From positions 160,978-224,977 of the forward strand of contig JAPLGO010000001.1 of assembly GCA_026390115.1 (NCBI GenBank): a stretch of 64,000 bases of DNA, written 5' to 3'. The DNA is from Campylobacterales bacterium. Lineage in GTDB: Bacteria > Campylobacterota > Campylobacteria > Campylobacterales > Sulfurimonadaceae. Positions 807 to 29,486 of the stretch are shown here, piece after piece; the stretch's first letter is position 1, and each line of letters begins with the position of its first letter. The notes under the pieces were generated by a model, which saw nothing but the letters and a program-made list of their open reading frames with translations, did no database searches and was not told the origin of the DNA. The translations under genes were made by a program, and so were the position numbers.

Positions 807-3800
807 ATGAATTATAAAAAAAGTTTATTAAGTTTAGTGACTATTATGGCACTAAGCAATATGGCAGTGGCAGATGATGCTGCAACATACTTACCGTTGT
901 CCTCAAAGGTGACAGATAGCGTTTGGAATCTGTTTGGGGTGAATGGTTTCAGCAATGGCGTTCCTAGCGCTGTATCTTCCGGAACTTCTTCTTTTTCGGC
1001 TGGTCTTACATCACTTGCCGACATACCGACTACAGATGAATTGGCAACGCCAGGTCTATCGAATGGTGGAAATTTAGCATCGCTTCAAGCCCTGCTACCT
1101 GCTACTCCGGTTATAAATACACTTTCAGTCGGTGTTGATATATCTACAACAGCATACAATGCTACAGAACCGGTTCGCAGTATGTATATGAAAGTCGGTT
1201 CTACCAGTATACCTAACGTAAAGTTTAACTACAAAGCTTCTCTTGAGGGCAAAGCAATAGAGATTTTGTTTAATGGAACTCTTTATTCAGCAACAATTGC
1301 AGAATCTAGTACTTGGGCAAATGCTTTAACTGCTACTTTAGGAAGTGGTGCCGTAGTTGCTACAACAGACAAGATTAAAACAGTTACAGGCGTACTCGAT
1401 TTTAATACAACTGATAATCCGGTTGAAGCAAAATATTTTAATGCTTCTACTCAGCTTTTAGCTACTGGCGCAACAGCAAGTTTTTACCACTTCAATGCCA
1501 TAACGCAACAGTGGGAAGTAAATCAAAAAAATGCAACTGTTCAAGACTTCACTAGCTTTACTGCAGGTAAGGCATATTGGGGTAGAGCAGATAGATTAGA
1601 TGCTCTTGGAAGTTTAAATCCGGATCAAGATGGTGCGACTGGTCTAATTCTAGGTCAGGCAACTGCTCTTAGCGGTATTCCAGATCCTGCAATGTATCAA
1701 GATGAGAGCAATGCAAGCACGCTTACGGCGGGATGGAACATGTTGTCATTTGATGACCACCAACCATACATCCGTCATGCAGCGACCGGCTTAGTTCTTA
1801 CATCCGTTGCCAATGGAAGTCAGTTTGTAATTACGGACGATTCCGGAGTAAACTCTATAACAGCTTCTGCAATTGCCGGTGGTGGTAATAACGCTGATGC
1901 TATGACCATCAATGCGGCGATAGAGTCTGCCAAACTACTAGGTTCTCTACCTCAAACATTTAATATAAAAGCGTTTCAAGGTTCGGGTGCGGGAACTATG
2001 ATTTTTCTCTCAGACAGAAAGTTTACAATTGGTGATGCTAATGCGACAGCTACTAATGTACCGGTGGCAACATTGGATGGGGCACAACCATATGTTAATG
2101 GTGTTAGAACCACAGTTGCCGATATAAACAATTCCGCTACTACCAGTGCAACATCTGCCTATGGCGAATATACAACAATTGTGAATGTTTTAACGGGTGC
2201 GGGCACTTCTGATTCCATACTTACTGGTGGTGGTGCCGATGCTACTGGTGCTAAACTCACATTTACAAGCAGTGATACAACAACTGGTTCGGCTACGGCA
2301 AATATTACTGCAAGTTTGACTAATGCAGCAAATGCTATCCATGCTATTCTTGGTTCAACTCCTACAGCTACACAAATCGATACAAATTTTGATGGTACAG
2401 CTGACATGCTTATCGTGGCAAATACAACGCCATACACTCTTAAAGATGCTACTTATACTCGTGTTTTTGCAGACACAAATACGACGGCTGGAAATGTGAC
2501 AGTTTCTGGCACTGCAAATACAGTAGTTGCATCAGGTGCTACATTAGCCTCTTTGGTAACTAATATAAATGCTGTAGCGGCTACAACTTTGATTGATGCA
2601 AATGCTACTCTAGATACCGTACCAAAGCTTGTAGCTGTAACGAATGCTATCTCTACTTTCGATATCAAAGATGTTGCAAGCGGAACGGTAGATATATTGT
2701 CTGCTAGTTCAACAGCCGGAGATTTAGCAAAAGGTGCTGTTGCAGGAGTTTATTCTCTTGATAGCGTTGCAAGATTACCTCTTATTCAGCACTCGTTTGT
2801 GAGTCCTCTATTTGACCCTAATTTAGCTGTTGATACTAATGTCACTATTAATGCAACTACTGCAACTATAACGGCTCCGGCATTAGGTACTACTATACCG
2901 ACTAGGTTAGCATATTTTGATGCGTTAGTTGCCGGAATTAATAATATGATTCAAAATACTCTCGGTGTGCATGGCTCTGCAAGCCATAACTACAGTGCGG
3001 CTACAAACAATATAACGGATGTCAACATCACGGTTGCCGGTCTAGGTGTAACAATCTTTGATATTAATAATACTTCTGGCGCTGGAGCTACAAATGTTGT
3101 AGTTCCTGATACAAACGCAGCTACTGCAGGAAAATTAGGTTCGGGTATAACTACCGGTGATTTGGTAGCCGACCTTAAAACAAACCCTATAGCTTCACCT
3201 AACTACGCTACTTACGGTCCACTCTACACGCTTCGTAACGCCGGAACAGGTTATGATGTAAGAGCTATCTTAAAAGCTACTACTGAGTTAGATACCAATA
3301 CAACGAGTGCTATTGCTTGGGACAGTATAGATATTACGCGTAATGAAAGTGAGTGGTTCTTAAACAACGAATTTAACCTATTCAACATTAACCATAACGC
3401 CGGTTACTGGGTCTATTTAGAAAATAAAACGCCGGACGCAGTTTCGATAGTTTCGGCAACATTTACAAGCCCTGCTTATACATACTATTTCAGTAATGCA
3501 GCTGGTTTAGCGACAACAAACATTATGAACAGTGGTCAAATATCAGTAACTATCACTGGACTTAGTGATGCAGTAGCCAGTTCAGCATATCTTACTGTTG
3601 GCGGTGAAGATGTTCCATTAACAAGATCAAGTCCTTCATCAAATATCTTTACAGCCGATGTGTCAAGTTACGCATTAAGAAATTTTGCTCAAGACCAAAC
3701 GGGACCAATCTCTATTACAGTAAGAGCTGTAAACGGTAAAGGTCAGGCTGTTACGGCTAGCGGTGTTGTTAGTATTGACTATCAAGCTCCTGTTATGACT

Positions 3801-4522: not shown

Positions 4523-5290
4523 ATGATGAAGCAGTTCTTTACTCTTTCACTGTTTTGTATAACACTTCTTGCAAACTCTTTGCAAGAAGCTTCTCCATCT
4601 TTCTCTCCTAAAGAGAGAGAGATTCTCTCAAAAGAGATTCCTAGTACTTCCCCTTTTTACAACTCAAAAACATACGACTTAAAAAAAGGTTGGAATTCCC
4701 TCACGACTCCTCAAGACGGCGTGGATGTTGTTAAAACTTTTGGCGAAGTTTCAGAACTGAAATATATAGTTGTTTATGACAGTGTAAGTAAGCTGTGGGC
4801 GGTATTTTCACATGAGAAATTAGAAGGAGAGCTGTTGCTCTTAAAATATTTGGAGCCAAATGTAACCTTTTTTGTACTGGCTTTGTCGGATACAAAAGTA
4901 GAGATAAAAAGCAATACTATAAATGTTGCATGTCAGAAAATTTTGGATGACAAACAGTATAACTTTTTACTTGATTCTGGAATAACACAAGAGTCTGCGG
5001 TGAGCAAAGATGAAACAATGAGTGCAAAATCTCGTTACTTTTCACACCATGAAAAGGGAATCTATAACGATACACGCATTGCGCTCATCTATCCAAAAAT
5101 AGAAGTAAAAACAAAAAGAAGTTACAAGTACGGTCCAGCTTTGCCAAAAACTTTTTTTGAATTCAGCAAAGAGTATGAAGCCAAAAAATTTTATGTTTAT
5201 GATTTTAAAGAGCAAAAGTGCTTTGAGGGCATTTTTCCATCCATGCAAATACCACCTTTTCCTACTTTAAAAGAGATAAAGACAAATTAA
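4523..5290 (+). CDS. Secreted protein of unknown function, C-terminal motif similar to that of the preceding 1231-aa protein
   Basis: ORF 255 aa with signal peptide; GWN.L motif and C-terminal GIFPSMQ motif. Confidence 0.7.
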   Translation: MMKQFFTLSLFCITLLANSLQEASPSFSPKEREILSKEIPSTSPFYNSKTYDLKKGWNSLTTPQDGVDVVKTFGEVSELKYIVVYDSVSKLWAVFSHEKLEGELLLLKYLEPNVTFFVLALSDTKVEIKSNTINVACQKILDDKQYNFLLDSGITQESAVSKDETMSAKSRYFSHHEKGIYNDTRIALIYPKIEVKTKRSYKYGPALPKTFFEFSKEYEAKKFYVYDFKEQKCFEGIFPSMQIPPFPTLKEIKTN

Positions 5291-5296
5291 GATAAA

Positions 5297-7618
5297 ATGC
5301 ACCCCATCTATATGGTGGGGAGTATCTGCTTGAAATATTTGGTCTTTTTATTTTTTACTTATATATCTTTAATTCTTTTTACCGGCTGTGAGACAACAAG
5401 CAGCAGTACGGGAAACACAATAAAAAAAATAACTCTCAGCGGTGCTGTTATCGATGGCTACATAAAAAATTCAAGCGTCTGTTTAGACCTTAATATGAAC
5501 GGTTCATGTGATGTGAGCGAGCCATCTACCCTTACCTCAAACAGCGGAGCATTTAGCTTTGGAGACATAAATGTAACAGGTACGCTCTATATGCCGGTTA
5601 TAGCAAGCGGCGGAACAGACACGGCAACAAACAAAAGCTTTACAGGCAAATTCAAAAGTATTGTAGATACGGACAATGCCCCACAAGCTGGGCAACTTTT
5701 TGTAACACCGTTAACAGATATGATTGCAACTTCTTTTCTTAATTCGCCGGCACAAACTTACTCTTCACTACAAGCCTCTATCAAACAAATAGCAGTTGCT
5801 TATAAAATTTCGGAAGGGTATAGCAACAAAAGCCCTATGCAGTATGCCGGCGTATTTGCAATAACACAAGAGATTCAACAAACTTTGGCACTCATTGAGA
5901 CTGCTGCAACCAAAGCAAAAGGGATCTCATTAACATCCGTACAACTGCTTCAACTTCAAAGAGAGATAAAGAGTGCAATTATCACGCAAATTAGCGAAGA
6001 TGTAGATATAAACATAGAAAAAGTGCTTACAAAGCTTGAGACACTCTCTACTATTACCATTCCGGCAAATGAAAAGAGTTTTCTAACAGCGCAAGTAGCA
6101 GAACTTAAGGTGGCAATAGATTCTTTTGTTGCAAATAAAAATTTAACCGCCGCAAATCTCAACACTTATCAGGCAGCTTTAGAAACAGAGCAGGGAAAAG
6201 TAATTGCCGCACTTGAAAATGCGGCCAGCGGAGCTTCTCTAACACCTATAAAAATAAATATAGATATATTTGCCGTTCCAGATACAAATACAACCGATAC
6301 AAACACTACAGACACAAATACGACCGATACAAACTCGACTGTACCGGTAGAAAGTAATACAACAACACTCTCTTTTGGAGGTGTTATGGTGGATAGTTAT
6401 ATCAGCGGAGCAAAAATCTGCTTAGATTTAGACAGCAACGGCGTATGCGGCACAACAGAACCATCAACAACTACAGACGGCAATGGAACATTCAGTTTTA
6501 CTAATTTAAAAGTCAACAAAAACACAATGATTCCTCTTATAGGATTTGGCGGAACAGATATAGCAACAAATAAATCTTTTTCGGGTGAATTTCAGAGCAT
6601 ATTAGATGTAAACAGTACGCTCCCGACTACCAAAATTGCCTTAACTCCATTTACAGATTTGGCAAAAGTTCTCTTTTTTCAATCAACTATAAAAAACAAA
6701 GCAGCATTTGAAGCTTCTGCTACTAATCTTGGAAGTGCCTTTGGATTAAGCAGCAGCGATATAGTAAGTGATACCATGCAAAATATTCAACTCTTTGCTC
6801 TATCACAAGAGATACAAATTACAAAATCACTCATAGAATTCGTAGCAAAGAAAGTAATGTCCAAGACATTGACAGAAGTTCAAAAAAAAGATTTGCAGTA
6901 CAAAATAAAAAATGCACTGTTGACTCGAATTTTGGATAACGGATATCAAAATTTAAGCATATCGGAAGTTCTATCGGTACTTGAACTAGATATGAATATT
7001 ATAATTCCGGACAGCAATAGAACATTTGTAATATCACAAATAGCAGAAGTGAAAAGAGTATTTTCTCTGCTCTCTACAGATGCAAATATACATGAATGGG
7101 CACTTCCAAGACTTCAATCGGTTGTTGAAACTGCTTTAGAACCGGCATATACAAACTCTACTTATGTTGATATGAATGTTACAGCTGAGAGTGTAACGTA
7201 CAGCATATTTGACAAAACAGATGCCGTTTTTGATGCATCTGCATGTATTAAAGATACGTATTATAAAAATACTTTAATTGATAGTAACGCGACCGAAGCG
7301 ATAAGAGCAAGCGACTCCGTAAATGGTCTTACGCTTAATTTTAACAATAATTCAGGATTTGATTCAGCAAATAAAGTTGTACTCTACTACCCACTCTTAG
7401 GTGCAACGAAAACCAATGAAAGCGTAACTGTTTTTCAAAATAGCTACTATTTTGCCTTTGACAAAGCATGGGCAAACACAGGCAAGCAAATTTATATACA
7501 AACACCTAAAAATACCAATGGCTTGTACGGGTGCCAAAGAGCTAAATTAGACTCAAATATATCAAGCGAAATACAGTTTACTAAGGTATACAGATATACC
7601 GATACAAATGCATCATGA
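5297..7618 (+). CDS. Putative lipoprotein with an internally duplicated domain, 773 aa
   Basis: Lipobox-like LFTGC; two homologous halves (GAVIDGYIKNSSVCLDLN… / GVMVDSYISGAKICLDLD…) joined by a DTNTTDTNTT linker; N-terminal start uncertain. Confidence 0.75.
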   Translation: MHPIYMVGSICLKYLVFLFFTYISLILFTGCETTSSSTGNTIKKITLSGAVIDGYIKNSSVCLDLNMNGSCDVSEPSTLTSNSGAFSFGDINVTGTLYMPVIASGGTDTATNKSFTGKFKSIVDTDNAPQAGQLFVTPLTDMIATSFLNSPAQTYSSLQASIKQIAVAYKISEGYSNKSPMQYAGVFAITQEIQQTLALIETAATKAKGISLTSVQLLQLQREIKSAIITQISEDVDINIEKVLTKLETLSTITIPANEKSFLTAQVAELKVAIDSFVANKNLTAANLNTYQAALETEQGKVIAALENAASGASLTPIKINIDIFAVPDTNTTDTNTTDTNTTDTNSTVPVESNTTTLSFGGVMVDSYISGAKICLDLDSNGVCGTTEPSTTTDGNGTFSFTNLKVNKNTMIPLIGFGGTDIATNKSFSGEFQSILDVNSTLPTTKIALTPFTDLAKVLFFQSTIKNKAAFEASATNLGSAFGLSSSDIVSDTMQNIQLFALSQEIQITKSLIEFVAKKVMSKTLTEVQKKDLQYKIKNALLTRILDNGYQNLSISEVLSVLELDMNIIIPDSNRTFVISQIAEVKRVFSLLSTDANIHEWALPRLQSVVETALEPAYTNSTYVDMNVTAESVTYSIFDKTDAVFDASACIKDTYYKNTLIDSNATEAIRASDSVNGLTLNFNNNSGFDSANKVVLYYPLLGATKTNESVTVFQNSYYFAFDKAWANTGKQIYIQTPKNTNGLYGCQRAKLDSNISSEIQFTKVYRYTDTNAS

Positions 7619-22972: not shown

Positions 22973-23060
22973 GGACAGTTGGGAGAGCGGTTGAATCTAC
23001 TACCTTGGAAAGGTAGCGTAGGGAAACCTACCGAGGGTTCGAACCCCTCACTGTCCACCA
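22973..23060 (+). tRNA. tRNA-Ser (anticodon GGA), encoded CCA
   Basis: Acceptor GGACAGT/ACTGTCC, anticodon arm CTACC-TTGGAAA-GGTAG, long variable arm, T arm GGGTTCGAACCCC, CCA end. Confidence 0.96.
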
Positions 23061-23063
23061 GAA
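23044..23063 (+). repeat. Left attachment repeat within the tRNA-Ser 3' end
   Basis: CCCCTCACTGTCCACCAGAA, identical to 28138-28157. Confidence 0.92.
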
Positions 23064-23163
23064 GAACAAAAATGACTTCAAACACCCTAAAATAGGGACT
23101 AACACCAGCACAAAACATATAAAGAATCAACTGTATGACACTTCTAACAAAAACTATGCACCT

Positions 23164-24338
23164 TTGAGAATTTACAAAGTTCAAGATATTTACTATTACA
23201 GAAGAAAGATTAATAAAAAACAGTATAGAATTAGTTTGAAAACAAAGGATTTAAAGATTGCTTTAAATCGTAGAAAACTTTTGAACCTGCTCAATGATGG
23301 AGAATTTATGTATACATTTTCAAAAGGTGATTTTAAAATCATTTTTGAATACGACACTATGGAAGAATATAGAGAAATGTATAAAGATGCAGAAGAAGCT
23401 TATAAAAACGCAATGCTCTATAATTATGAAAGAGTTCAAACAGCTTTATCACAAGTTGATACTTCTCCTCAATCTGCTGAACACTCTATAACTTTTGAAG
23501 AATTAAAGAGTAAATTTCTTGTTATGAAAAATAAGTCAAATAAAGTTGGGGACAGTAGCTATAAGCAATATTATTCTATTTTTACCAAATTAATTAAATA
23601 TTTCAAAGACAGAAATATACATTCTCTTAACATAGAAGATTTTGAAGGATTTAGAGACTATTTAATCAGCTCTGGTCTGGTTGCCAAAACTATCAATGGA
23701 ATAATGCGAAATGTAAATCAATTTATAAAATTTGGTGTTAATTATAAATATCTCAAAGAAAATAATATTGAGGGCTTAGAGACATTAAAAGAAATAACAG
23801 TAAAAAAAGAAAATTTCACTGACGAAGAAATAAACGCTGTTCTAAATTATGAAGATATAGAACCAAATTATAAAATGGCGTTTAAAATAGCGATTTACAC
23901 AGGTATGAGAGTATCAGAAATTATCAATATTGAAAATGAAAACATAAGAGAAAAAGATAGCATTACATACATAGATTTACCTAAATCAAAGACAGATGCA
24001 GGGATTAGAGATATTCCTATTTGTGACAAACTTTTAAGCGATATAAAAAATACAAAATTTCCACTATTTCCAGAAAAACTCAAAGCGCTGTTCAAAAAGC
24101 AATATTGCGAAAACTTTATAAAATTCTTGATGTTGAAGGCGAAAAAGTATTTCACACATTTAGAGCCACTTTCATAGGCAAGGCTGTAAATACTTTCCCT
24201 GAAAAACTTCCCATTATTCAAGAAATAGTTGGACATAGCAAAAGTGATAATAGTTCTTTGACGATTGATACATACGCAAAAGGTTTTAACTTAAAGCTAA
24301 AAAAAGAAATTGTTGACGCGATAGAATATACTTCATAA
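23164..24338 (+). pseudogene. Tyrosine recombinase/integrase, frameshifted between the catalytic-Arg and HxxR regions
   Basis: Frame 1 (23164-24177) has YTGMRVSEI; frame 2 (24105-24338) has FHTFRATF, VGHSK and DTYAKGF; frames meet at the A-run 24074-24078. Confidence 0.85.
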
Positions 24339-24434: not shown

Positions 24435-25301
24435 CTATATATCAATATCAAAGCTACTTTTTCTCTTAGTGCTTAAAATAACATCTTTGATATTTTTATT
24501 TACAAGCTCCATATTCTTATCAAACTTCTCCTGATTGTTCTCTTCAAGAGCTTTATCCATGCGATTTAGATAGATTAATACTCTTTTTTCAACCTTCTCT
24601 TCAAGGTCTTCTAAAATAGTGTCAATACTGCTTTTATACTCATTTAGTGCATCTCTTTGCTTGTCTAATTTAGATTTATTAATTGGTATTTTTTTCTTTG
24701 CCGTTGGTTTATTGGTTTTTATAACATATTCATTTATATCATAGCCTTTTGCTCTTGCTACTTCAATTGCGATATTTTTCAATAAAAATGAGTATTTCTT
24801 TTTAGACAAATCAAGTTTGACATCTTTGATATACTCTGACAGCACAAAATTAAACTGCATCATACTACCTTGCTCTTGCTTGTGTATGTTGTAGAAATTA
24901 TTGTCCTGTATATGGTTAATTATGTCTTCTCTTTTCATATCAAGATTATTAGCATCGATTAGGTTAGTAAAGAACTTTAACAATATAGACTGAATGGCGC
25001 TTTTCTCTTTTTTGTCGTCTTTGAAAGAAAAAGGAAAGTTTATTGTGAAAGAATGCCCATATTTGTTTGGTGGTTTCCCACCAACACCTTTTAATAGTTG
25101 TTTAGTATGTGCAACTTCAAGAGGAATGCACATATTTAAAAATACCTTTTGCATAGATTGAAAGTTTCTTATTGAATGACCATCTTTTATGTGATTTTTG
25201 TGATTATTATTGGTTAAATACCTTAAATAAGTCAATAACCCATTCTTGCCAGATTTAATCGTCTTTGCGATGGTTATCCAGTTTTTTAGCTTCCTGCTCA
25301 T
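24435..25301 (-). CDS. Element-encoded protein of unknown function, 288 aa; faint relaxase/Rep-like pattern only
   Basis: ORF overlapping the upstream 94-aa ORF; 'IAKTIKSGKNGLLTYLRYLTN' and 'GSMMQFNFVLSEYI' look vaguely like mobilization proteins but lack an HxH motif. Confidence 0.6.
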   Translation of the reverse strand: MSRKLKNWITIAKTIKSGKNGLLTYLRYLTNNNHKNHIKDGHSIRNFQSMQKVFLNMCIPLEVAHTKQLLKGVGGKPPNKYGHSFTINFPFSFKDDKKEKSAIQSILLKFFTNLIDANNLDMKREDIINHIQDNNFYNIHKQEQGSMMQFNFVLSEYIKDVKLDLSKKKYSFLLKNIAIEVARAKGYDINEYVIKTNKPTAKKKIPINKSKLDKQRDALNEYKSSIDTILEDLEEKVEKRVLIYLNRMDKALEENNQEKFDKNMELVNKNIKDVILSTKRKSSFDIDI

Positions 25302-25845: not shown

Positions 25846-26793
25846 TTAATCGCCATATGTTGTGGCATTTAAAATATTTTCAATATCTATAGAGAATTTA
25901 TCTAGCATTAAAAAGCGTTTAGTGTACATAGAGCGCTTGTTTGATTTAATTTCATCAAAACTTTTACGATTTTCGACAATCGGTAAACTGAAAAAATATC
26001 CATTAAAAATACCACCTGATTCAATCCAGTATATATCATAATCTGCTTTGAACTTTTCAGCATGTCTTGGCTTACGTGAGTGTCCAGCATGATATTTTGT
26101 TGAAATCGCATTAAGGTAATCAACTTTGAGTGTTTTGCATATTTGCCTAGTAATAAATATCATGAAATCTCGTGGTCGTACACCGTGCATAGCTTTTGTA
26201 ATGTTCCTAACCACTCTCTGTGAATATTCACTTGGACTTGGTCCTTGCATTCCGCCTATTATTGCATGCAACTTACCCTCTATTTCTGCAAACAAAAAAG
26301 TAACCGAATAAATTCTTTGGTTCTGGGCATCCAAAAAAGATAGTATAAGCTCACCTTCTTTCTCGAAAGAACCATCATAAAATAGCTTAACAATGAATTT
26401 ATCGTCTCCAAACTCAATATCTAGTAAATTAATACCTGATCTACTATACATAGCGTCTATAGACTCTTCTTTGAATTTATTTGCTATAAATCGATAATGA
26501 GATGTAATATAGTTTATTTTCTCGTAAATGCTAAATTCATATACAAGATAAGGATGGAATGGCTTACTGTATATTCTTGGGTGAGTTGAAATAATAAGAT
26601 CATAAACGGGGTGGGTATGGGTATCAAAAAAATCAAATAATTTTGTTATGAATTTTTTGTAAATTATAGATCTAGCGATAAACTTTATTTTTCTCTTAAA
26701 AGAATATTCGCAACTATTTGCTATTTGGTTTGCTTTGTATATAATCAACTGCTTTAAGCTCAACTTTTCGTTAAATCTATTAAAAATCGCCAA
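25846..26793 (-). CDS. VirK/YbjX (DUF535) family protein
   Basis: IEGKLHAIIGGMQGPSPSEYSQRVVRNITKAMHGVRPRDFMIF and YLNAISTKYHAGHSRK typical of DUF535. Confidence 0.88.
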   Translation of the reverse strand: MAIFNRFNEKLSLKQLIIYKANQIANSCEYSFKRKIKFIARSIIYKKFITKLFDFFDTHTHPVYDLIISTHPRIYSKPFHPYLVYEFSIYEKINYITSHYRFIANKFKEESIDAMYSRSGINLLDIEFGDDKFIVKLFYDGSFEKEGELILSFLDAQNQRIYSVTFLFAEIEGKLHAIIGGMQGPSPSEYSQRVVRNITKAMHGVRPRDFMIFITRQICKTLKVDYLNAISTKYHAGHSRKPRHAEKFKADYDIYWIESGGIFNGYFFSLPIVENRKSFDEIKSNKRSMYTKRFLMLDKFSIDIENILNATTYGD

Positions 26794-27084: not shown

Positions 27085-27970
27085 TATAATTATTTAGTAA
27101 GTGAAAGATAAATATATCTTTCACTTACTAAATAACCTTTTTGTGTTTTTTCTACAGCTGGAAGTTTGAGATTTTACAACCCATGAATTATTATTAAAGG
27201 ACGTCAGAAGCGTTTTAATAATAATTTCCCTTATTATTGTCAATGTAAAATCTCACAATAAACTAAAAAAAACACCTTCTACGAAAGTATGAGCGTCTAA
27301 ACCTTATCTAAGTTGATTTATCAATATGATAAGAGCAAACTAATAGTTTAGAAAAAAGACTTAGCAAGGACAAGAGACCCTTAGTTAAGCCCCCTGCTTC
27401 TGACCTCATTTTTAATGAGAGGGGTTTAGGCTATCTTGTTTGAGTTAGAAATAATACAAAAATCGGCGAAAGACTATCCGCAGATAAAAATCCAAAAATC
27501 AACATTTTAAGATTACTCAAATATTATTCTTGTATTTTATATTTTTATGTATAAAATACACGCTTGAAAAAAAAGAATATATGTGACGGACACTCAATGA
27601 TACAATATCATTTAGTATAATATAGATACCATCTTACAACAATTTAAGAAATTGTTGTAGGGCTATTTATGCTCAAAAGCCTAAATCCACAATATTGTTA
27701 TATTATATTTCCATTTTTATTAAATTGTATCATTATGTCAAATAACCCATTAAAGAAAAAAAGAAATTATGAGAGTTTGTAAAAAAGTTAGAACGTAAGT
27801 TATTACTTTTTTACAAATTTTTAGTTTAAAATTACGCAGTAATTGAAAAATAAAAACCCAACAAAAAAAATCAAGCCAACGGCGAATTCAAAAAATAAAA
27901 AAATAATTTTAAAATTAAAAAAGCCAAGAGGCTATTTTATGCCTGCCGGAAGCTATTGAATAAAATAAAT
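27085..27970 (+). ncRNA. Candidate large structured RNA region (unclassified)
   Basis: No convincing ORF; at least 15 perfect or near-perfect helices of 6-21 bp, many nested; GAAA and GUAA tetraloops; G-U extensions favour the plus strand. Confidence 0.5.
27090..27135. repeat. Perfect inverted repeat, 21-bp arms, 4-nt loop
   Basis: TTATTTAGTAAGTGAAAGATA-AATA-TATCTTTCACTTACTAAATAA. Confidence 0.95.
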
Positions 27971-28065: not shown

Positions 28066-28287
28066 ATGACACTTTCACTGTCTGACGATGATATAAAATC
28101 CCTAATTTCAGGGGTTATAGAGGGTTTAGTCAATGTCCCCCTCACTGTCCACCAGAAACGCAATAAATCCCAAAAAAATCGTACTTTCAAGGGTATCAAT
28201 AGAACATTTTTGAAACAAAATGCAAAATATTTGTTTAAAATCAAAAATTCCTTTTACATCTCTTTAAGATATAAAAAAAGGTGCTAA
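28066..28287 (+). CDS. ORF across the right att site; probable detached 5' portion of the integrase gene
   Basis: ATG with AAGGA RBS; codons 1-24 are inside the element, then the att core in the same frame as the integrase ORF at the left end. Confidence 0.5.
   Translation: MTLSLSDDDIKSLISGVIEGLVNVPLTVHQKRNKSQKNRTFKGINRTFLKQNAKYLFKIKNSFYISLRYKKRC
28138..28157 (+). repeat. Right attachment repeat
   Basis: CCCCTCACTGTCCACCAGAA, identical to 23044-23063. Confidence 0.92.
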
Positions 28288-28540: not shown

Positions 28541-29335
28541 TCATCTATGTGCTGTTCCTGAATCAGAAGTTTCACCATTTATCTTTTGTTTTAAAGGTTT
28601 TTTAGCTTTAATTTTTTCTATTTCATCAAAATTTAATGTTTGTATCAAACCTTGCGCTTCAAGATTAAACATTGTTTGTTCTTCAACAGCAAGTGCCATC
28701 TTCAAAGATGTAGCATTATAATCCAGATTGCTGTTATTCTCAAGTTCACTAAATCTTTTTAAAATAGCTTCAATTGCAATTGGTGCATTCGAATGTGAAT
28801 TATTTTTTTCAATTAATTTCTCATAAACAGCATTAAGAACAATAATGGACTTCTTTGTTGCCTTAGACGGAACTTTTAACAACTCTTCTTCTGTTGTATT
28901 TGTTTCTTGCGCTAACACAAATAATTTTTGCTCACGGATTGTTTCATTTTCATCAGCAATATATGTAGTAGTAGGAGTAATTACGTTACTGTAAGATGTA
29001 AGATTAATGTCAAGGGCAACATCCGCAGCTGTTAAATTTCCATCACCGTCAACATCAATCCAGCCACCTACAGCTGTAACAGGAAAAACAGGCTCATTTA
29101 CGAATATATATGTATTATTTGTATCACTTACCTGTACTGCAACACTGCCATTTGCATCTGTAACATTAGAATCATAAACGGCACCTCTTTCAACTACTAC
29201 ACTGTATCCTGAAATTACAGTTTGTACGGAAGCAGAAGCATCGCTTAATGAACTAGAGCTAGTTCCAGAACCACAGCCATAAAACGATAGTGTCACAATT
29301 ACCGACAATGAATGAATAAATTTTTGTTTTTTCAT
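28541..29335 (-). CDS. Putative lipoprotein, 264 aa, downstream of a c-di-GMP riboswitch
   Basis: Lipobox LSFYGCG; VGGWIDVDGDGNLTAADVALD segment. Confidence 0.75.
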   Translation of the reverse strand: MKKQKFIHSLSVIVTLSFYGCGSGTSSSSLSDASASVQTVISGYSVVVERGAVYDSNVTDANGSVAVQVSDTNNTYIFVNEPVFPVTAVGGWIDVDGDGNLTAADVALDINLTSYSNVITPTTTYIADENETIREQKLFVLAQETNTTEEELLKVPSKATKKSIIVLNAVYEKLIEKNNSHSNAPIAIEAILKRFSELENNSNLDYNATSLKMALAVEEQTMFNLEAQGLIQTLNFDEIEKIKAKKPLKQKINGETSDSGTAHR

Positions 29336-29399: not shown

Positions 29400-29486
29400 A
29401 TATTGCAACCTGGCGATCTCTTATCAAAGACCCATAGCTTTCCGTCCTTGCTTCACAACAAGTTTGGCACGTTTTAACAGGTGAAA
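29400..29486 (-). promoter_or_regulatory. Cyclic di-GMP-I (GEMM-I) riboswitch
   Basis: Minus strand: ACGTGCCAAACTTGTTGTGAAGCAAGGACGGAAAGCTATGGGTCTTTGATAAGAGATCGCCAGGTTGC; matches the GEMM-I core (GCAAAC…GGACGCAAAGCC..GGGTC…GCCAGGTTGC). Confidence 0.85.

Follow-up and report, generated by a model that had tools for sequence, protein, structure and literature searches.

The locus and its host element

What does a stretch of 886 nt (27085-27970) without a convincing reading frame contribute to an integrated element of only 5.1 kb, whose other cargo is a tyrosine integrase, a 288-aa protein, a 94-aa protein and a DUF535 protein? The element lies in the window analysed here, a stretch of 64,000 nt within contig C16 of a 2.64-Mb genome, and is bordered by the 3' end of a tRNA-Ser(GGA) gene and a partial copy of it (Table 1). 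An earlier note, made from the sequence alone, had proposed that the stretch is a large structured RNA carried by the element; folding energy, the absence of a convincing ORF and covariation with a diverged second copy bear this out.

The 288-aa protein has no Pfam match and is probably relaxase-like. Its homologues (L073, L074, L075) retain two paired histidines resembling those of HUH relaxases, and an alignment with two homologues shows that the second histidine is absent from the protein of the window. A truncated, 84%-identical copy of the same protein occurs elsewhere in the genome (C33:198675-199250), with no RNA beside it. Just beyond the element lies a c-di-GMP-I riboswitch (29401-29478), upstream of a lipoprotein-like gene (28541-29335, minus strand).

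Table 1. Features of the element and of the RNA, in window coordinates
Feature	Position	Strand	Basis or remark
tRNA-Ser(GGA) gene	22973..23060	+	ARAGORN and Rfam
Left attachment site, tRNA-Ser(GGA) 3' end	from 23044		29-nt repeat with 28138
Integrase, main part	23164..24338	+	Pfam Phage_integrase and Phage_int_SAM_5; ORFs; sequence
Relaxase-like protein (288 aa)	24435..25301	-	alignment with two homologues; relaxase identity probable
DUF535 protein	25846..26793	-	Pfam, E 3e-67
Putative -10 box TATAAT	27085..27090	+	common to both copies at the start of homology
5' hairpin, 21 bp	27090..27135	+	sequence replaced, hairpin retained in second copy
Large structured RNA	27097..27940	+	ends predicted from -10 box and terminal hairpin
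Variable 5' domain	27143..27493	+	mostly 80-86% identity to 27445; structure kept by compensatory changes
Highly conserved stretch: end of 5' domain and 3' domain	27446..27760	+	95-96% identity
Indel-rich linker	near 27493-27505	+	closes the variable 5' domain
Terminal hairpin with T-tract, putative terminator	27917..27938	+	conserved in both copies
int(N), detached 5' end of integrase gene	28066..28137	+	in-frame join across att core
Right attachment site, copy of tRNA 3' end	28138..28166		86% 29-nt repeat

Folding and coding potential

The whole stretch folds with energies far below those of shuffled controls, at -199.2 kcal/mol on the plus strand (z -11.9) and -212 kcal/mol on the minus strand (z -8.6). 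On the plus strand, z is still -6.5 when the 21-bp 5' hairpin is left out and -5.8 for the 326 nt of 27500-27825 alone, while flanking non-coding controls give z values of about 0. Among the unpaired bases of the plus strand 49% are A. No ORF of at least 60 aa overlaps the stretch and the short ones reach 44 aa at most; the single conserved short frame (27669-27782) has accumulated mostly amino-acid-altering changes between the copies. The impression that no named class matches also held: in a search of the region with the Rfam covariance models no family reached its gathering score, including group I and group II introns, tmRNA, RNase P, GOLLD and ROOL. Permissive thresholds returned plastid and miRNA-like matches on hairpins only, which we took as chance. 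A group I intron-like string, AUCCGCAG, was dropped, as its partner strand is absent and Rfam gave no match.

A diverged second copy on another element

The same genome contains a second copy of the stretch on a different element (C33:39653-40519, minus strand). The two copies are 83% identical over 973 aligned positions and represent the sole DNA-level similarity between the two elements. The left edge of the alignment holds TCTATAATTA, common to both copies, and the alignment stops about 45 nt past the common terminal hairpin, which reads GCC-AAGA-GGC in the window and GCC-TTTCA-GGC in the second copy. Beyond the highly conserved stretch identity returns to about 80%, and a 16-nt indel after 27495 parts the two halves. 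Read on the RNA strand, the second copy also folds below its controls (z -7.2, against -11.9 for the window copy).

The second element starts at a tRNA-Asn gene (att C33:79706), followed by the start of an integrase, a Mu-like prophage, the rest of the integrase, a MobV-like relaxase, the RNA, int(N) and the other att (39445). The relaxase has a Mob_Pre match that falls under its cut-off, and the prophage, with a Mu portal protein and a Mu-type transposase, interrupts the integrase (G000 C33 ~44000-79600; L079, L080). Thus, the order tRNA, integrase, relaxase-like gene, RNA, int(N) and att is common to both elements, and in each the RNA gene has the relaxase-like gene on one side and int(N), at the attachment site, on the other. 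The integrases of the two elements, both broken, are only 45% identical over 96 shared aa; hence the RNA either evolves much more slowly than the genes around it or is transferred as a module. Recombination between the copies could account for the near-identical block.

Covariation between the copies

The two diverged copies, on two elements, share a common fold that is maintained by compensatory changes. An RNAalifold consensus of the copies has 211 pairs, with 11 compensatory and none broken, but the alignment itself had shaped that structure. A fairer test predicts the structure from the window copy only. With this structure the other copy shows 10 pairing-preserving double changes against 2.2 expected, a number reached in 0 of 5000 randomisations, and 28 broken pairs against 40 expected. 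The first 60 columns, which include the 5' hairpin, are poorly aligned, and the test was therefore repeated without them: this left 6 double changes against 1.4 expected (P 0.003) and 16 broken pairs against 30 expected (P 0.0001), all from one comparison of two copies in one genome. The compensatory changes include: 1) U-A to C-G at 27307/27329, 27313/27324 and 27341/27345; 2) G-C to A-U at 27315/27322; and 3) A-U to G-C at 27620/27667. A change of CAGCTG to CAATTG at 27155, palindrome for palindrome, was rejected as a hint of self-pairing, since at least one such change turns up in 14% of randomisations.

All helices that the earlier note had called perfect are perfect in the window, and most persist in the second copy. 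Named by their outermost pairs, 27143/27275, 27297/27351, 27370/27439, 27387/27427, 27439/27521, 27596/27734, 27635/27659 and 27830/27844 are fully kept, as is 27303/27333 with one compensatory pair. The helices 27167/27255 and 27531/27560 are retained at the cost of one pair each, and 27186/27226 loses one pair while showing two compensatory ones. Two or three of the proposed helices fail in the second copy: 27405-27410/27414-27419 has 4 of its 6 pairs broken, and 27616-27624/27699-27707 has 2 of 9 broken, where both copies can accommodate 27614-27625/27663-27673 instead, one of its pairs being compensatory. The third, 27776-27788/27805-27817, has 5 of 13 pairs broken in that register, and the second copy (L029) forms a long hairpin of its own at the position of 27776-27817. 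As for the two hairpins with GNRA loops, the GAAA one (27276-27293) is conserved, and in the second copy the GUAA one lacks its outer pair.

These data bear on whether the stretch is a decaying remnant or functionless AT-rich hairpin DNA, as the broken integrases of both elements and the lost histidine of the relaxase-like protein might suggest. We find this scarcely credible in view of the compensatory changes, the 95-96% conservation of a non-coding block and the flanking non-coding DNA, which is free of excess folding.

Probable strand and ends of the RNA

The plus strand is likely to be the RNA strand, to judge from the TATAAT at the left edge, the better plus-strand z and the terminal hairpin, which would act against incoming minus-strand transcription. 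No -35 partner for this TATAAT was recognised in our scan. It appears improbable that the real transcript is instead the minus strand, as a regulatory or antisense RNA running in the direction of the DUF535 gene. The minus strand folds well too and keeps its pairs, and its consensus fold has more double changes and the lower absolute energy (-133 against -122). However, the lower energy is expected from the greater G and T content of the minus strand, and the z against shuffled alignments favours the plus strand (-7.2 against -5.4). Further, the hairpin at 27917-27938, which reads as a terminator on the minus strand too, would with its T6 terminate minus-strand transcription entering the region, and no conserved minus-strand -10 box is seen by eye at that end. 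The G-U pairs of the 27776 helix, which the earlier note had cited in favour of the plus strand, are a weak argument, given that wobble pairs also form in the minus-strand fold.

Covariation cannot separate an RNA from single-stranded DNA, and the presence of relaxase-like genes on both elements might point to a structure that acts in the latter form, for example as a replication or transfer origin in the circular element. We regard this as quite improbable: the RNA is remote from the expected site of an oriT, on the 5' side of the relaxase genes, no replication gene was recognised, and the stretch displays a GNRA loop along with putative promoter and terminator signals. Known single-strand origins are also far smaller than this RNA gene.

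An integrase split by its own attachment site

The open frame of the integrase extends upstream across the att core (window 23044-23164 and 28066-28166), and in the excised circle a short ORF from 28066 would continue in frame through this core into the integrase. The integrase is also frameshifted at about 24085-24110, with a 337-aa ORF to 24177 followed by an ORF at 24105-24338, which may reflect real decay, a sequencing error or a programmed shift. In four related integrases from other genomes of the order (L059, L063, L064, L066) the start likewise lies on a short segment at the opposite end, in frame with the main part through the att repeat, and a frame that spans attP is found in at least 5 elements of this bacterial order. 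The attachment site of the integrase thus divides its own gene in these bacterial elements, and since the frame crosses attP, integration detaches the first 20-40 codons. Exchange at attP is limited here to this short N-terminal piece of the integrase.

The position of the RNA directly upstream of int(N), in the same direction in both elements and with a terminator-like hairpin in between, might suggest a cis-acting leader, in which a transcript of the excised circle runs from 27085 into int(N) and the fold and terminal hairpin gate integrase synthesis. This, the main rival reading, is unlikely. In both copies int(N) has its own conserved TATGAT (28043) and ribosome-binding site (AAGGAC, 28052), and the four related elements with the same split integrase have no RNA upstream of int(N); both points weaken the leader reading, and 840 nt would be very long for a leader. 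The existence of related elements without the RNA further implies that it is an accessory rather than a part of the integrase system.

Two of these related elements carry non-coding DNA of other sequence. Beside its integrase, the L064 element has a hairpin-rich stretch of 909 nt (2564-3473, integrase on the plus strand; z -7). It contains direct repeats as well as long perfect hairpins, and its sequence is unrelated to that of the RNA. In the L063 element about 600 nt of moderately structured non-coding DNA (5284-5890, integrase turned to plus; z about -3.6) occupy the slot of the RNA directly upstream of int(N), with no convincing sequence similarity to it.

Distribution

In 400 genomes of the order, two sub-domain covariance models recovered the genome of origin alone, as did the R1 model by itself in 136 genomes of the genus; the R2 model by itself, in 24 genomes of a second genus, which has the most related integrases, found no homologue. 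Covariance matches of 20 bits in L032 and L033 are weak and look like chance. BLAST gave AT-rich noise only in 100 relatives and nothing real in phages and plasmids. Exact searches, which are weak negatives, gave one chance match in a protein-coding sequence for a 20-mer in 85,488 species genomes, and none or chance matches in viral contigs for seven patterns, each 16-21 bases long. The RNA was also absent from the relatives of the element found through the integrase or the 288-aa protein. This class of RNA is either very rare or poorly sampled.

A proposed role and comparison with known large RNAs

We propose, with a probability of about 0.6, that the stretch is a stand-alone non-coding RNA gene of about 840 nt, an accessory of small integrative mobilizable elements. 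As a diverged second copy on another element keeps the same fold, the gene seems to represent a genuine new RNA class, though a very rare one. Transcription would be driven to the right by the TATAAT at 27085 and stop at the hairpin of 27917-27938, which narrows the likely gene to about 27097-27940. The product would fold into two domains with a variable linker between them, the 5' domain being variable and the 3' domain nearly invariant. By analogy, it may be an abundant structural RNA, self-assembling or a scaffold for protein, that serves the element, in parallel with the role that GOLLD and ROOL may have for phages. Its place beside attP makes it plausible that expression is tied to excision or transfer. 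A more specific version, still tentative and on balance doubtful, is that of a new class of large self-assembling RNAs of integrative mobilizable elements in this order, whose expression would be tied to the excised state, the gene abutting attP and the split integrase.

To our knowledge, large ornate RNAs are few and unexplained. Recent work showed that three of them assemble into complexes free of protein, two of these being cages (PMC12286853). Among the closest parallels is GOLLD (RF02032), many members of which exceed 800 nt and which combines a tRNA neighbourhood, a conserved 3' domain, a variable 5' domain, a variable linker and important unpaired A residues (PMC12286853). The RNA described here resembles it in size, in its mobile-element host and tRNA neighbourhood, in the contrast between a conserved 3' domain (95-96%) and a variable 5' domain (mostly 80-86%) across the two copies, and in its variable linker and A-rich loops. 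However, it resides on a small integrative element rather than a phage. A closed 14-mer RNA cage is a further mark of GOLLD. The RF02032 model has no match at E<=10 in the region, and its best match elsewhere in the genome scores 13.5 bits against a cut-off of 150.

With ROOL (RF03087) the RNA shares large ornate structure, mobile DNA and the want of a known protein partner. However, its 5' and 3' parts differ in conservation, while those of ROOL are intertwined and must co-evolve (PMC12286853). RF03087 too has no match at E<=10 in the region, and it is this search that carries weight, as a genome-wide scan gave none in control genomes either. Compared by description, the ~800-nt non-coding RNA of phage ICP1 is similar in size, in its ORF-less gap and in its mobile DNA, but belongs to a lytic phage and has measured expression (PMC7567579). 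The RNA also displays the conserved complex fold, covariation and lack of an ORF that typify large structured bacterial non-coding RNAs in general.

The resemblance to GOLLD, together with the lack of a match to the GOLLD or ROOL models, leads us to propose a class that works similarly: on our best reading the RNA may represent a class of large mobile-element RNAs that is new and very rare, and that would act like GOLLD and ROOL without belonging to either. If so, the presence of such an unrelated class on an element of 5 kb would mean that RNAs of this kind are no speciality of phages, and so minimal an element, with few genes besides, would offer a much simpler setting in which to learn what large ornate RNAs do.
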